In this document: in pieces, positions 12,601 to 24,478 of the stretch
Layout: every line of letters begins with the position of its first letter
Position numbering within the stretch: the first letter of the stretch is position 1
NCBI GenBank assembly: GCA_003313425.1
Contig: NHZP01000006.1
Location: 620,001 to 684,000 of the forward strand
Origin: Pseudopyrenochaeta lycopersici
Taxonomy: Eukaryota; Ascomycota; Dothideomycetes; Pleosporales; Pseudopyrenochaetaceae
Reading direction: 5' to 3'
DNA: 64,000 bases
The notes under the pieces: generated by a model
Databases searched by the model: none
Seen by the model: only the letters and a program-made list of their open reading frames with translations
Told to the model about the DNA's origin: nothing
Program-made: the position numbers and the translations under genes

Positions 12601-15002
12601 CTGCGAGAAGCGCGACCCCAACCTGGCGTACATTGCCTATGCCAAAGGCCAGAATGATCTTGAGCTCATCAACATCACTAATGAAAACGCCATGTTCAAA
12701 GCCCAAGCCCGTTACCTGCTTGAACGAGCTGACAGCGAGGTGTGGGACTATGTTCTGAGCCCTAACAACATGCACCGTCGGTCCTTGGTGGACCAGGTCA
12801 CATCAACGGCTGTTCCAGAAAGTACCGATCCGGACAAAGTGTCAGTCGCTGTCAAGGCTTTCATCACCGGAGACATGCCTTCAGAGTTAATTGATCTGCT
12901 TGAAAAGATCATACTTGAGCCTTCCAGCTTCAGTGACAATCCGTCGCTTCAAAACTTGCTCATGTTGACGGCCGCCAAGTCGGATCGTGGACGCATGATG
13001 GGATACATCCACCAGCTTGACCACTACACACCCGAAGACATAGCCCAGCAATGTATTGAAGTTGGCATGTATGAAGAGGCGTTCGAGATTCATAAAAAGC
13101 ACAATACCCACGTGGAGGCTGCCAATGTTCTGATCGAGCACATTGTCAGCATTGATCGTGCACAGGATTATGCAGATCGCGTGGATATTCCTGAAGTTTG
13201 GAGCAGGGTTGCGAAGGCGCAGCTTGATGGCCTACGCGTCTCTGATTCAATTGAGTCCTACATCCGCGCAGGAGATCCCTCGAATTTTCTAGAGGTCATC
13301 GAGATTGCCACCCATGCTGGTAAAGACGAGGATCTGATCAAGTTCCTAAGAATGGCTCGCAAAACTCTCCGCGAGGTACCTGTGGATACCGCCTTGGCTT
13401 TCTGCTTTGCCCGAACCAACCAACTACCAGAACTCGAGGACTTCCTGCGCGCTACCAATGTTGCAGATGTTGAGGCTTCTGGCGACAAGGCCTACGAAGA
13501 GGGTTACCATGAGGCGTCAAAGATCTTCTACACTAGCATTTCCAACTGGGCTAAGCTTGCAACCACGCTTGTTCATCTCCAGGACTACCAAGCTGCGGTC
13601 GAGTGTGCACGCAAGGCCAACAGTGTCAAGGTATGGAGAAAGGTCAATGAAGCTTGCGTTGCCAAAAAGGAGTTCCGCCTCGCTCAAATCTGTGGTCTTA
13701 ACCTTATCGTTCATGCCGAAGAACTCGCAGATCTCGTCAAGCAATACGAGCGCAGTGGCTACTTCGACGAACTCATTGGCCTTCTTGAAGCCGGCCTTGG
13801 TCTGGAACGTGCCCACATGGGCATATTCACAGAGCTAGGTAATGCTCTTGCCAAGTACCATCCTGAGCGTGTCATGGAGCATCTTCGCCTCTTCTGGTCT
13901 CGTATCAACATTCCAAAGATGATTCGTTCTTGCGAGGAAGCTCATCTATGGCCGGAGCTGATCTTCCTTTATGTTCATTATGACGAGTGGGACAATGCGG
14001 CCCTTGCCATGATGGAACGGGCATCAGATGCTTGGGAACATCAGGCATTCAAAGACACTATTACCAAGGCCACCAACGTCGAGATTTACTACCGTGCATT
14101 GGGCTTCTACCTGGAAGAGCAACCAACGCTTCTTACTGATTTATTGCAGGCTCTTACTGCAAGGATTGACGTCAATCGCGTCGTTCGTATGTTCGTCAAG
14201 TCGGACAACATCCCTCTGATCAAGCCATTCCTCCTCAACGTCCAATCGCAGAACAAACGTGAGGTCAACAACGCCCTCAACGACATTCTTATTGAAGAGG
14301 AAGACTATAAGACGCTCCGTGATTCGGTCAACAATTACGACAACTATGACCCGGTTGATTTAGCCCAGCGCCTTGAGAAGCATGACTTGGTGTTCTTCCG
14401 CCAGATTGCGGCCGATATCTACCGCAAGAACAAGCGATGGGAGAAGTCTATAGCTCTATCTAAACAAGATAAGCTTTTCAAGGACGCCATCGAAACTTCG
14501 GCAATGTCGGGCAAGTCTGAAATTGTTGAGGAGCTGCTCCGCTACGTAAGTTTAGTGTCACATTATTTGGGAAAGTAACTAACACAAACTCCAGTTCGTT
14601 GACATTGGTAGCCGCGAGTGCTATGTGGGCATGCTCTATGCCTGCTACGACCTTGTTCGTCCAGATGTCATCCTGGAAATGTCATGGCGACATGGCTTAC
14701 ATGACTTCACCATGGTATGTGTTCATTGAGGCAGGAAAGCCGAAAGAGTACTGCTAACATGCTCCTAGCCATTCATGATCAACCTTCTCTCGCAGCAGAC
14801 ATCAGCAATTGAGCTGCTAAAGAAGGACAATGAGGAACGTAAGGCTCGTGAGGCCACACAACAAAAGAAAGAAGAGGACACACCCATCCTTGGATCACGG
14901 CTTATGCTCACACAAGGTCCGATTGCTTCGGCTCCAAGCCCGGGCCCCTACGGGCAGGCCAATGGCATTGCACCCCAACCAACAGGTTACAGGGCCTTCT
15001 AA
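9606..15002 (+). CDS. CHC1: Clathrin heavy chain
   Basis: Structural subunit of the clathrin triskelion that coats endocytic and trans-Golgi vesicles. Seven exons fit: 9606-9650, 9712-9732, 9803-9829, 9887-10264, 10316-14545, 14595-14714 and 14769-15002, giving 1,684 aa, the expected length. The three tiny 5' exons are recovered because they rebuild the conserved N-terminus: MAQRQVPLHVTQPTL, LTNLNIL, PASISWQNC, then TLESDKYVCVRQ. The N-terminal beta-propeller occupies about residues 1-330 and is followed by the linker and the repeated alpha-helical clathrin repeats in the long exon 5. The C-terminal trimerisation region and a Gln/Gly/Pro-rich tail are in the last two exons. All introns are GT-AG. 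No frameshift or stop is seen. Confidence 0.95.
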
Positions 15003-18858: not shown

Positions 18859-21800
18859 ATGACTGCGGTCGTAGCTGACAAGAACGCCTCGTCGGCCATT
18901 GACGACAATGACTTCGACGACGAACATGGCGAGCACCACCCGCACAGGAACTCGGTGCACCACCACCTGCGGGCAAGCAGCTCCATCATGCAGCTGAAGA
19001 AGCTGCTCGGTACGTTGCCCGCGTCCAATGGCGCCTGGGAAGCTCCGTGGGCCGTCTAACAGCGCTGCCAGTGGCCAACCGAGGAGAAATCCCCATCCGC
19101 ATCTTCCGCACCGCCCACGAGCTGTCCCTGCACACCGTGGCCGTCTACAGCCACGAGGACCGTCTCAGCCTGCACCGGCAAAAAGCCGACGAGGCCTACG
19201 AGATCGGTGCTCGCGGCCAGTACACGCCCGTCGGCGCCTACCTGGCCGGCGACGAGATCATCAAGATCGCCGTCGAACACAATGTAAACATGATCCACCC
19301 GGGCTACGGCTTCCTCTCGGAGAACGCAGAGTTTGCACGCAATGTCGAGAAGGCCGGACTGATTGTGAGTGCTGCCCGCTTTGTTTACCCTATGACGGCA
19401 TGCAAGCGAGGGGTTGCCCTCGCCTATCGGCCGCTGTTGAGCTTATCGGGCCCTCCAAACATGGCAAATCCAACGCTTACCCTCCTCTCTAGTTTGTTGG
19501 GCCCTCGCCTGACACCATTGACGCCCTCGGCGACAAGGTCTCGGCGCGCAAGCTGGCCATCAAATGCAATGTGCCAGTCGTGCCCGGCACCCCAGGCCCC
19601 GTCGAGAAGTTTGAGGATGTCAAGGCCTTCACCGACCAATATGGCTTCCCCATCATCATCAAGGCCGCTTTCGGCGGCGGTGGCCGTGGCATGCGTGTAG
19701 TGCGCGAGCAGGCCACTCTCAAGGACTCGTTCGAGCGCGCAACCTCCGAGGCCAAATCGGCCTTCGGCAACGGCACCGTCTTCGTTGAGCGCTTCCTCGA
19801 CAAGCCCAAGCACATCGAAGTCCAGCTTCTAGGCGATAACTTTGGCAATGTCGTCCACTTGTACGAGCGTGACTGCAGTGTCCAGCGTCGTCATCAAAAG
19901 GTCGTCGAGATTGCCCCAGCCAAGGACCTCCCCGTCGAAACCCGTGACGCCATCCTGGCTGATGCTGTGAGGCTTGCGCAGTCGGTCAATTACCGCAATG
20001 CAGGCACTGCTGAGTTCTTGGTCGATCTCAAGGGTAATCATTACTTCATAGAGATCAACCCGCGCATGTAAGTATTTTTTTTTTTTTTTCGTTCTTATCA
20101 TCAATGATGCTCAATTTCGAGGCGCTCTGCTAACGAATCCAAGCCAAGTCGAGCATACCATTACCGAGGAAGTCACTGGTATTGACATCGTTGCTGCGCA
20201 AATTCAGATTGCGGCAGGCGCCTCCTTGGAGCAGCTCGGTCTGACCCAGGATCACATCTCCACTCGAGGCTTCGCCTTCCAGTGCCGAATCACCACGGAA
20301 GACCCCTCTCAAAACTTTGCCCCAGACACTGGCAAGATTGAGGTGTACCGTTCGGCAGGCGGTAATGGAGTTCGTCTAGATGGAGGTAGTTCCTTTGCAG
20401 GTGCTGTGATTACTCGTAAGTATACTTCCTGAAAGTGCTTTCTCGGATGCCGGGAGCTAACGCCATGTCAACAACAACAGCACATTATGACAGCATGTTA
20501 GTAAAATGCTCATGCCGTGGATCTACTTATGAAATCGTCCGTCGAAAGATGCTCCGCGCTCTTGTCGAATTCCGTATCCGTGGAGTCAAAACCAACATTC
20601 CCTTCTTGATCAAGCTTCTGACACATCCTACTTTCGTCGACGGCCAGTGCTGGACGACCTTCATTGACGACACTCCTGCGCTCTTTGACTTGATCGGTTC
20701 CCAGAACCGAGCCCAGAAGCTGCTTGCGTATCTTGGCGATCTCGCCGTCAATGGCAGCCAGATCAAGGGTCAGGTTGGCGAGCCCAAGTTCAAGGGTATT
20801 ATTCCCATCCCCGAGATCCGCGATAACAACGGCAACAAGGTGGATACATCCGCATCTTGCACTAAGGGATGGAGGAATGTGCTTCTCAAGGAAGGGCCGG
20901 AGGGATTCGCAAAGGCCGTCCGTGCCAATAAGGGCTGCTTGATCATGGATACCACCTGGCGTGATGCCCATCAGTCACTCCTTGCGACGCGTGTGCGAAC
21001 TGTTGACCTTCTCAATATTGCCAAGGAGACGAGTCACGCTTTCTCCAATGCTTGGGCTCTTGAGTGCTGGGGTGGCGCCACTTTCGATGTTGCTATGCGT
21101 TTCCTCTACGAAGACCCTTGGCAACGCCTGAGACAGATGCGGAAGCTTGTACCAAATATCCCGTTCCAGATGCTTCTTCGTGGAGCCAACGGCGTTGCCT
21201 ACTCATCTCTTCCGGACAATGCCATTTACCACTTCTGTGAACAGGCTAAGAAGAATGGCGTTGATATTTTCCGTGTCTTTGATGCGCTCAACGACGTTGA
21301 GCAGCTAGAGGTTGGTATCAAAGCTGTCCTCAAGGCTGGCGGTGTTGTCGAAGGCACTGTGTGCTATTCGTAAGTTTTCCCCTCTTATACACCCTCAGCT
21401 TATACTGACTGTCTTACAGCGGAGACATGTTGGTCAGTATTTCTTCTCTTTTTTCTCTTTGTCATGTGATTTCTTGCATCTTCTCCATTACAGCATCCGG
21501 TTCATCGAATCGCCATTGGCGAATTTGGAGAGCGCTTTCCTCATGGTCATGGTGAGTGTCGCCTCCACCATCTCCATGAGGCGCGCACTTCCCCAATCAT
21601 TGGGCAGGTGCGCCTGGTACCACCCCCAAACACCGGCAAGGTTCTATCTTTCTCATCTCTCGCAACCTCATCCGTCTGCGAGCTGTTCGAGTCACTCATT
21701 TCGGCCACTCAACACTTCCACCCATACCCTTTCCGATCAAGATGGTTCTCGGAATGAAGGCTTCAACGGACATTGAACGACTCATTTTGGCGCTTTGCTG

Positions 21801-24478
21801 GGATCGTCTTTCTTCCGCGCCCAATTCCATGAAGAACCCAGCCCATGCCATCGTCATTCCTGACTTCCAGGCGATGGACACAGTTTTGTCGACTTTAGGC
21901 CTCAGCTTCGCTCCCGGTCTTCTAGGCGTTATCCAATCTGCCGTGCCGCCTTCTCTAGACTTCTTTCAAAGTTTGCCCACCAAGTGCAATAAGGTCTGGG
22001 CTATCTACCGTATTGTGCTCGTGAAACAGGGAAGCCGACCTAAGATCTGCATCGGCTCCGGTCTCAACGCTGACAGCGGTGCTCCTAAACGGCTGAGACA
22101 ATACGACACTCACACCAACCTGCCTAGTGGTGTTGAGAAGGCCCTCAATGACGGCTTTAATATCGCCCAGAAAGGGCTTTTCTGTTGGACAAAACTCCCA
22201 AAACCTACAGCGACGATTCCCCTCCGTTCTCTCTTCCTCATTCTGGAGACTGTCTTCTCGCTGGTGTTCTGGCCCATGCAGTCCCGCACAAAGGACTACA
22301 ACATGCCCAAGTTCTTGCCCTGGCCGATCGAGTCACTTGTTTACGACGGTTGCTGCACCCACTTCTCCATATATGAACAGATTCATGGACTGGAGCCCAA
22401 CCTCACCGTGGAACAAGCGGCAGAGTTGGAAGTGCTAAGAGTGAAGAAGGCCAAGGAGGTGGCTCCTATATATCAAGGTGCGTTGGACGCCGTCCAACAG
22501 TCCTTTTGAGCGACTCGATTGAGTGGCTCACATCTCCACAGCGAAGTTCAGAACGAGAAAAGGGCCAACGCATATGAAAGCCATCAGGAATCGTGCGAAG
22601 GGCAAGCTCAGGATCACTCGCAAATATGCGTGCGAACCGTGCGATCACATCTTCTACGACGACTCTTCTCTGAAGGCACATCGGAAGACAACCAAGCACC
22701 TGAACAATATTGCCTGTGTCATTAAGAAGCTCAAGCGCCCGAGCAATAATGCCAGGCAACTCGCTGATGTCCCTGCAAAGAGGTTCTACTGCAGCATTTG
22801 CGACTTCGCTTTCCGTCACAAAGCGGCCCTCAACAAACACTTAGCCTTGCCTAGACACGCCAAAAAGGCGGCTGCTGCTGCTGCTCCGGCGGAGGAGTAG
22901 TTTACGACCGGGACCGTAGGACCTGGACTATGGAGTTAACCCATTTAACCTTATGAACTGACGCTTTAATTCTATTTCCTATGTATCTAAATGAAGATAA
23001 TTTGCTAATGAATTTGTCATACACAGAAACCCAATGCCAAGTACAACCTCGAGTACTATGTGGACGTTGTAGAGAAGATCGTTGGAATGGGAATTCATGT
23101 GCTCGGCCTAAAGGACATGGCTGGCGTGCTCAAACCACGCGCTGCTCGCCTCCTGATCGGCACACTTCGCAAAAAGTACCCTGATCTTCCCATCCACGTC
23201 CACACTCACGATTCTGCCGGTACTGGTGTCGCTTCCATGGTCGCTTGCGCCGAGGCCGGCGCCGATGCTGTTGATGCTGCTATTGATAGTATGTCTGGCA
23301 TGACGTCTCAGCCCAGCATCGGTGCCATTCTGGCGTCCCTTGAGGGCACCGACTTCGACGCTGGCCTGGATGTCCATATGATCCGTAATCTTGACGCATA
23401 TTGGGCCCAGCTTCGTCTCCTCTACTCGCCGTTCGAGGCCGGTCTTACTGGCCCCGACCCCGAAGTCTACGAGCACGAAATTCCTGGTGGCCAGCTCACC
23501 AATCTTATTTTCCAGGCCTCTCAACAGGGCCTCGGTGAGCAGTGGGCCCAAACAAAAAAGGCTTACGAGCAGGCCAACGACTTACTCGGCGACATTGTCA
23601 AGGTCACACCTACTTCGAAGGTCGTTGGCGACTTGGCTCAATTCATGGTCTCCAATAAGCTCTCCTATGACGAAGTTCTATCAAAAGCTGAGCAACTTGA
23701 CTTCCCGTCGTCCGTCCTAGAATTCTTCGAGGGTCTTATGGGTCAACCTTATGGTGGCTTCCCTGAACCGCTTCGCTCACAAGCTCTTCGTGAGCGAAGG
23801 AAGATGGATAAGCGTCCTGGACTGTACCTTGAGCCCGTCGATATTGCAAAGGTCAAGTCTGATCTCAAGTCCAAGTGGGGCGATGCGACTGAGTGCGACG
23901 TAGCATCCTACATCATGTACCCCAAAGTTTTTGAGGATTATAAGAAGTGGACCACCAAGTACGGTGATCTCTCTGTCCTGCCAACGCGCTACTTCTTGTC
24001 TCGCCCAGAGATTGGAGAAGAGTTCCACGTTGAGCTTGAGAAGGGTAAGGTTCTGATTCTCAAGCTCCTTGCCATCGGTCCGCTCTCCGAGCAGACCGGT
24101 CTACGTGAGGTGTTTTACGAGATGAACGGTGAAACACGTACCGTTACTGTTGAAGATCAACACGCAGCTATTGAGAATGTATCTCGGCCCAAGGCCGACC
24201 CCACCGACAGCAGTCAGGTTGGCTCGCCCATGTCGGGCGTGCTGGTCGAAGTCCGTGTCCATGACGGCAGCGAGGTCAAGAAGGGCGATCCGGTCGCGAT
24301 TCTCAGTGCCATGAAGATGGTATGTCCGCTAGCAATTATTAGCACGTATCGAGAAAGAGCTAACAACTGATAGGAAATGGTCATTTCGGCTCCTCACTCG
24401 GGCAAGGTCAGCAGTCTATCGGTCCGCGAAGGTGACTCAGTCGACTCTGGGGACCTTGTCTGCAAGCTTGTCAAGTGA
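18859..24478 (+). CDS. PYC1: Pyruvate carboxylase
   Basis: Cytosolic biotin enzyme that carboxylates pyruvate to oxaloacetate (anaplerosis). Eight exons join in one frame: 18859-19009, 19072-19364, 19493-20067, 20144-20415, 20481-21369, 21420-21432, 23027-24319 and 24374-24478, giving 1,196 aa. Domains in order are: a His/Asp-rich N-terminal extension (about 45 aa), biotin carboxylase with ATP-grasp loop [10 protein letters not shown], carboxyltransferase with [13 protein letters not shown] and GLKDMAGV, and the biotinyl domain. The biotin Lys is about Lys1161 in AMKM, directly before the last intron. The start and length match the family. Exon 6 is only 13 nt (completing SGDML), and the intron after it is about 1.6 kb because it holds another gene. 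The other introns are 50-128 bp. One (20068-20143) carries a long T run after its donor. Confidence 0.95.
21433..23026 (+). other. Gene-bearing 1.6-kb intron of pyruvate carboxylase
   Basis: The intron interrupts PYC1 between residues 731 (GDML) and 732 ([11 protein letters not shown]). The donor is GTCAGT at 21433. The acceptor is ACACAG ending at 23026, with a branch-like GCTAATG at 23004-23010. The first 61 nt would already form a normal-looking small intron ending at TTACAG (21493), so the insertion lies between that point and the distal acceptor. The intron encloses a complete same-strand protein gene and about 125 bp of AT-richer sequence after its stop. No terminal inverted repeat, target-site duplication or RIP decay is visible. 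Confidence 0.85.
21742..22900 (+). CDS. Intron-nested GIY-YIG-like / C2H2 zinc-finger protein
   Basis: Exons 21742-22477 and 22542-22900 join in frame (364 aa) through a GT-AG intron (GTGCGT donor, CCACAG acceptor) that fuses two otherwise separate frames. The ATG context is AAGATGG. At about residues 90-155 a GIY-YIG-like pattern appears: AIYRIV, then KICIGSGLN, then PKRLRQYD, then [15 protein letters not shown] Glu in LILETVF is a candidate for the metal-binding residue. A hydrophobic, Trp-rich segment follows. After the intron come two C-x2-C-x12-H-x5-H fingers ([11 protein letters not shown]... and [11 protein letters not shown]...) and an Ala-rich tail. I infer a DNA-binding nuclease-like protein. 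The YIG Tyr is Cys here, so activity is uncertain. Codon use resembles the surrounding host genes. The nuclease assignment is by motif only. Confidence 0.75.

Follow-up and report, generated by a model that had tools for sequence, protein, structure and literature searches.

A homing-endonuclease-like gene nested in a spliceosomal intron of the pyruvate carboxylase gene of Pseudopyrenochaeta lycopersici, and its family in fungal housekeeping genes

In a 64,000-nucleotide stretch of the Pseudopyrenochaeta lycopersici genome (GenBank assembly GCA_003313425.1, contig NHZP01000006.1, positions 620,001 to 684,000 of the forward strand; hereafter the window, in whose coordinates positions are given), a complete gene is nested within an intron of the pyruvate carboxylase (PYC) gene, and this nesting is confirmed as real and beyond chance. 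The nested gene is quite probably a member of a Pezizomycotina family of nuclear, intron-resident homing-endonuclease-like genes that move by cut-and-repair homing. Lineages of this family occupy particular codons of conserved housekeeping genes (in the window, within a spliceosomal intron), and relationships among family members follow the host gene, not the fungal class. A first-pass annotation, made from the letters of the window alone, had suggested that the gene may be a nuclear counterpart, in a spliceosomal intron, of the homing endonucleases of introns, either selfish or domesticated; as far as sequence comparison can carry it, this proposal gains support from the host-gene sorting, the 12 vacant sites of this genome and the housekeeping hosts described below.

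The nested gene and its host intron

The break of the PYC frame between GDML and KPNAKYNL, first described as an interruption of 1.6 kb, corresponds to a spliceosomal host intron of 1594 nt (PYC site A; 21433 to 23026, + strand) in phase 0, with a GTCAGT donor at 21433, a CAG acceptor ending at 23026 and a CTAAT branch-like motif that begins 22 nt before the intron's end. Once joined, ...CYSGDML and KPNAKYNL... form a PYC segment whose alignment to solved pyruvate carboxylases continues through the junction (E 5.2e-60), with a one-residue gap three residues downstream of it. An Rfam scan of 21300 to 23150 gave no match up to E 1, although absence from a library is no proof against a ribozyme, and a search of 21330 to 23130 for repeats of at least 12 nt gave no repeat pair at the intron ends, hence neither the terminal inverted repeats nor the target duplication of a DNA transposon.

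Inside this intron and on the same strand as PYC, the nested gene runs, as first annotated, from an ATG at 21742 to a stop at 22900 and encodes 364 aa after splicing of exon 1 (21742 to 22477) to exon 2 (22542 to 22900), both on the + strand. Its own intron of 64 nt (22478 to 22541, +; GTGCGT...CCACAG) fits the fact that the open reading frames (ORFs) P0001 and P0002 end shortly beyond the splice point, and no CTRAY-type branch motif was found in these 64 nt. These two ORFs are the nearest relatives of the protein (~58-60% and 56% identical, respectively) among 72 homologues, the best of which has an E-value of 6.5e-95. Both C2H2 zinc fingers of the first-pass annotation were recovered by Pfam (zf-C2H2, E 6.4e-6), finger 1 at residues 274-298 (22625 to 22699, +) and finger 2, also seen in the family alignment, at residues 327-351 (22784 to 22858, +).

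The GIY-YIG-like segment that had been claimed (residues 84-209; 21991 to 22368, +) is visible in the family alignment and in the fold comparison, where a GIY-YIG fold was found, and was not found by Pfam profile searches. The GIY Tyr, the YIG Tyr, an Arg and a Glu have assigned catalytic roles, and these four residues occur in order in 91 of the 97 testable family rows; the YIG position is a Tyr in 95 of the 98 rows having a letter there. The family architecture consists of an N-terminal helical part, the GIY-YIG domain, a long helical linker and at least two C2H2 fingers. The finger number seems by eye to be variable, some of P0094, P0028 and P0021 having at least three, and such differences could give members different target recognition.

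Under the homing explanation, the host intron would be removed by the spliceosome, a step read from the sequence, leaving the PYC protein intact, and the essential host gene would therefore still work. The nested gene would be transcribed on its own and its protein made from that transcript. To judge from the fold and the fingers, the fingers and the linker would pick out the coding sequence surrounding the insertion point and the GIY-YIG domain would cut alleles lacking the intron, after which recombinational repair from the occupied allele would copy the intron together with its gene. Conserved codons of essential genes are durable targets that the host can hardly alter, a property that would account for the host genes used.

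Host genes, insertion codons and relatedness

An ordinary homologue search admits only proteins of a length similar to that of the query; a search with a 1083-aa chimera, in which the family domain alone was scored, admits proteins of ~600-1900 aa. All 23 hits of the latter were fungal gene models fusing a family member to a housekeeping protein, namely aconitase (6), carbamoyl-phosphate synthase (CPSase; 5), PYC (3), Ded1 helicase (3), clathrin heavy chain (2), and PMT1, GCN1, HSP70 and ATP synthase alpha (1 each). A second long search, seeded with the CPSase-linked P0079, returned 10 hits, every one of them in a CPSase and six of them new. Overall, the long hits (P0073-P0101) were joined to conserved housekeeping proteins in 29 of 29 cases, covering nine kinds of host gene, so that the search for relatives in conserved genes suggested by the first-pass annotation was rewarded, with residence in introns of other species being inferred from the gene models. 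Host protein lies on both sides of the nested domain in seven of them (P0077, P0079, P0081, P0092, P0093, P0097 and P0101). Public models of essential enzymes such as aconitase, CPSase, PYC and Ded1 (P0073-P0101) are in effect nuclease chimeras, and as such are likely annotation errors. In addition, P0029 (Elasticomyces), a 379-aa family member aligning along the family and without Pfam domain, carries the source name cpa2 carbamoyl-phosphate synthase; its host being known from this name only, it was left out of the host-gene rows. The carrier species span Dothideomycetes, Sordariomycetes, Leotiomycetes, Eurotiomycetes and Lecanoromycetes (class was looked up for 10 genera). Scans for relatives gave 20 pattern matches in viral contigs and 30 matches in bacterial and archaeal genomes, none of which was confirmed.

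Insertion places recur to the codon. In CPSase, the host sequence stops at MIN or MVN, or restarts at (Y/F)NPET, with one or both sides given per model, and the same codon is used across classes in eight models, belonging to the arginine-specific enzyme (P0079, P0083, P0091, P0101) and to the pyrimidine-pathway enzyme (P0090, P0097, P0098, P0099). Because these two CPSases are old paralogs, family members have reached one codon in both. The junction of P0094 is a few residues off, and P0096 and P0100 join at other places. Aconitase is entered at SPK|D (P0088), at KGGT|G (P0086) and around CIG|QWDRR (P0075, P0080, P0089), while P0084 departs from aconitase about nine residues after the junction of P0086; Ded1 is entered at QIER|GCDLL (P0081) and at VAA(R)|GLDIP (P0077, P0082). 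Site A of PYC is also occupied in Stictis, to within two codons of the site in the window, and a second site (site B) is occupied in Elsinoe and probably in Oculimacula. Note that the clathrin and PMT1 sites are defined from one side only.

Relatedness was read from a 30-row tree, from which P0093, P0095 and P0101 were excluded, each being a fragment or having a very long branch. On this tree, host gene (27 rows, 8 states) required 8 changes for a minimum of 7, a count as low being reached in 0 of 5000 shuffles (mean 15.7), whereas taxonomic class (27 rows, 4 states) required 12 changes and was matched or beaten by 1253 of 5000 shuffles. Without the five rows that came from the CPSase-seeded search, host gene again required 8 changes (0/5000) and class 9 (808/5000). 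In the 30-row tree, the window copy falls into one group with the ORFs P0001 and P0002 (100/98) and into a group with the Ded1 rows (96/90); in a 92-row tree, it forms a supported group (98) with five ORFs whose host is not known.

Vacant sites and competing explanations

The 62.7-Mb genome holds a single family member, as searched with three family queries and the nested parts of eight chimera queries, and the family gene is absent from all 12 read sites that are occupied elsewhere (aconitase being counted at the place of P0086 and not at that of P0084, and GCN1 not being among the 12). Seven of these sites are uninterrupted here, namely both Ded1 sites, ATP synthase alpha, clathrin, PMT1, aconitase KGGT|G and pyrimidine CPSase. 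The other five are interrupted in the same place without the gene, namely aconitase SPK|D, aconitase CIG|QWDRR, HSP70 (KK|D, 59 nt), PYC site B (65 nt; 20416 to 20480, +, at the T|P codon where the Elsinoe PYC model enters its family member) and arginine CPSase (310 nt). With ~0.2-0.5 coincident interruptions expected from a rough hand count of introns, five have a Poisson chance of ~4e-6 to 2e-4, so the insertion places stand out even when vacant. The genes may move into introns that were already old, or plain introns may be left over once the gene is lost; the seven intron-free sites suggest that simple ancestry does not account for the intron at every site, though this lineage may have lost introns.

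The 310-nt interruption of arginine CPSase (L050, 1194-1503; C8, this genome) lies exactly at the family's CPSase target codon, starts with GTAAGC and has TACTAAC near its end, with no AG acceptor at the expected exon start. A degenerate internal repeat is seen in it by eye, and no convincing family remnant was found in it, nothing falling below E 0.008 among the matches listed.

A more far-reaching proposal, which we put forward tentatively and with the balance of probability somewhat against it, is that cellular spliceosomal introns can be autonomous mobile elements, natural gene drives that enter intron-free codons of essential nuclear genes. A short ordinary intron left after deletion of the gene would then make homing a route of spliceosomal intron gain, and the seven uninterrupted and five interrupted sites fit this proposal.

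Several observations weigh against the homing explanation itself. No Pfam GIY-YIG domain was found for the window protein, none appeared among the matches listed for five family members (for P0003, the best 25 of 27 families), and across the family the profile was absent among the 25 most matched of 82 families; the first-pass annotation had itself named profile searches finding no GIY-YIG similarity as an outcome speaking against its proposal, and with Pfam this is literally what was obtained. Foldseek by itself returned nothing significant, and in a family-profile search of PDB sequences the best 60 of 285 matches cover the zinc-finger half only (profile position 230 onward). Motif conservation and the fold comparison outweigh this missing profile. 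The window copy has three of the four catalytic residues, Cys103 (22048 to 22050, +) replacing the YIG Tyr, and in 22 of the 29 long hits, all of them gene predictions, host sequence lies on one side only. In the 30-row tree, the bootstrap had not stabilised and 16 of the 27 inner branches are left open, two clathrin rows, two PYC-site-B rows and the aconitase row P0084 fall outside their own host groups, and the host-gene change count scores paraphyletic groups as no extra change. Moreover, sorting by site is what homing predicts, yet long vertical inheritance could also give it, and the CPSase paralog case is better evidence for targeted insertion.

One alternative is an ancient nested family of nuclease ancestry, passed on vertically in conserved introns, often lost and without homing today, that would serve the host or its splicing, as an RNA chaperone or in a maturase-like way. 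The resemblance of the fingers to the double-stranded-RNA-binding zf-jaz type (matched by 39 of 45 members at E up to 1), the five sites interrupted here without the gene and the lost YIG Tyr of the window copy would suit such a role, as would the mirusvirus MING-1 case, described in the accessible part of its report as intron genes lacking nuclease residues that were long kept at one site (PMC12768974). We nevertheless consider it unlikely, because the four nuclease residues are all retained in those 91 of 97 testable rows, because nine kinds of host gene were reached, with two paralogs entered at one codon, and because seven of the 12 sites here have no intron whatever. That the window copy is a homing gene in decay, or one no longer active, its mechanism being past for this locus, is a serious possibility, short of being the expected one, and compatible with the homing explanation. 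The YIG Tyr-to-Cys change, common to the nearest relative P0001, and a Gln at 143 point that way, but the 364-codon frame is open, R117, E169 and the finger Cys and His are retained, and the sharing of Cys with P0001 at ~58-60% identity means that the change has persisted in open frames. Given its Cys, the copy could have reached a late or altered stage; it may be active, altered or retired, and its protein may no longer cut.

The remaining alternatives have far less to offer. Fused models might be annotation errors that join neighbouring genes, the nesting in housekeeping genes being unreal, as could be argued from their status as gene predictions and from the one-sided host sequence; this is highly improbable, as the partners are conserved housekeeping proteins in 29 of 29 cases instead of random neighbours, host sequence flanks both sides in seven, the CPSase junctions agree to the codon across classes, and nesting is visible in the DNA of the window. 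A pure annotation artefact was rejected on the junction and two-sided host evidence. An insertion within a coding sequence also recalls a transposon or a group I or II intron, an even more remote prospect. The transposon was rejected on the single genomic copy and the lack of a repeat pair at the intron ends, and the group I or II intron on the GT-AG ends, the branch-like motif and the Rfam scan without a match up to E 1. A recent mitochondrial origin of the nested gene was likewise rejected, on the weak argument that its GC content at third codon positions is 0.62 vs 0.60 for the 3′ part of PYC.

Related systems and the surrounding window

Self-splicing introns and inteins make up most of what is known of homing introns. 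I-TevI and the GIY-YIG endonucleases of mitochondrial group I introns have the catalytic fold and the residence in an intron in common with the fungal family, but their host intron is self-splicing, whereas the PYC intron of the window matched no ribozyme family and the fungal family has at least two C2H2 fingers. I-TevI itself has a DNA-binding tail. The WHO elements of yeasts have a nuclease class that differs from that of the fungal family. In the accessible part of their report, WHO elements and HO are nuclear homing genetic elements tied to the conserved FBA1, and a Kazachstania FBA1 intron lies precisely at the inferred WHO cleavage site (PMC7282813); both systems link a nuclear homing element to a conserved gene, but WHO lies downstream of FBA1 without interrupting it, and the window gene lies inside the PYC intron. 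His-Cys homing genes, according to the text available, also are nuclear and contain spliceosomal introns of their own, but their host is ribosomal DNA with self-splicing group I introns (PMC9548176). A GIY-YIG homing gene in a fungal nucleus is likewise described, in what could be consulted of the Ustilago maydis study, as a gene of mitochondrial origin inside a telomeric RecQ gene and judged not functional (PMC7593156), this being a single gene and not a spliceosomal-intron family.

The closest published system is that of the mirusvirus 'shintrons', spliceosomal introns with endonuclease genes (334, including 132 of GIY-YIG type) in conserved genes and with target-gene preference, for which the accessible part of the report treats cleavage and homing as inferred, its authors remarking that eukaryote genomes apparently have no equivalents (PMC12768974). 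Both systems place endonuclease genes within spliceosomal introns of conserved genes; the shintrons are viral and mostly in virion genes, whereas the fungal family resides in nuclear housekeeping genes and has C2H2 fingers. An endonuclease-type gene within a GT-AG intron without group I or II signature is established for the window locus only, and recurrence at specific sites of conserved genes was found across the family (29/29 long hits; eight CPSase models; 0/5000 shuffles). On the features testable here, the fungal family fits the shintron description as far as that source gives it, with cellular hosts and a different architecture.

Among the papers listed from the open-licence literature searched, no report of the family in cellular spliceosomal introns was found, and the only report of spliceosomal homing introns found there is, in its accessible part, the viral one (PMC12768974). 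Our results suggest that selfish homing genes can reside in the ordinary introns of cells and perhaps travel with them. If true, a family spread across five Ascomycota classes brings spliceosomal homing introns into cellular genomes and offers natural examples of drive-like elements hidden in essential genes; occupied, empty and intron-only alleles make it possible to test, at defined codons, how new spliceosomal introns originate; and chimeric public gene models of essential enzymes are explained.

Around the nested gene, the upstream PYC exon (20481 to 21369, +), located by tblastn with other fungal PYC, is followed by a 50-nt intron (21370 to 21419, +; GTAAGT...CTTACAG, with a CTGAC branch-like motif) and by a 13-nt micro-exon, CGGAGACATGTTG (21420 to 21432, +; the final base of a Ser codon, then G D M L), read from the sequence and from its continuity with solved PYC. 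This micro-exon is squeezed between the 50-nt intron and the 1594-nt intron, beyond which the downstream exon (KPNAKYNL...) extends from 23027 to 24319 (+). Part of a clathrin heavy chain gene lies at ~13970-14993, and the site used in the Meristemomyces and Aureobasidium models is uninterrupted there. The host intron region is not RIP-like (RIP, repeat-induced point mutation), as had been noticed at first for the nested gene, with a TpA/ApT ratio of 0.58, compared with 1.6 to 2.2 in the three AT-rich tracts measured elsewhere in the window. These RIP-like tracts lie at 33-34 kb, 48-53 kb and 58-64 kb, and GC is low across much of 40-64 kb.
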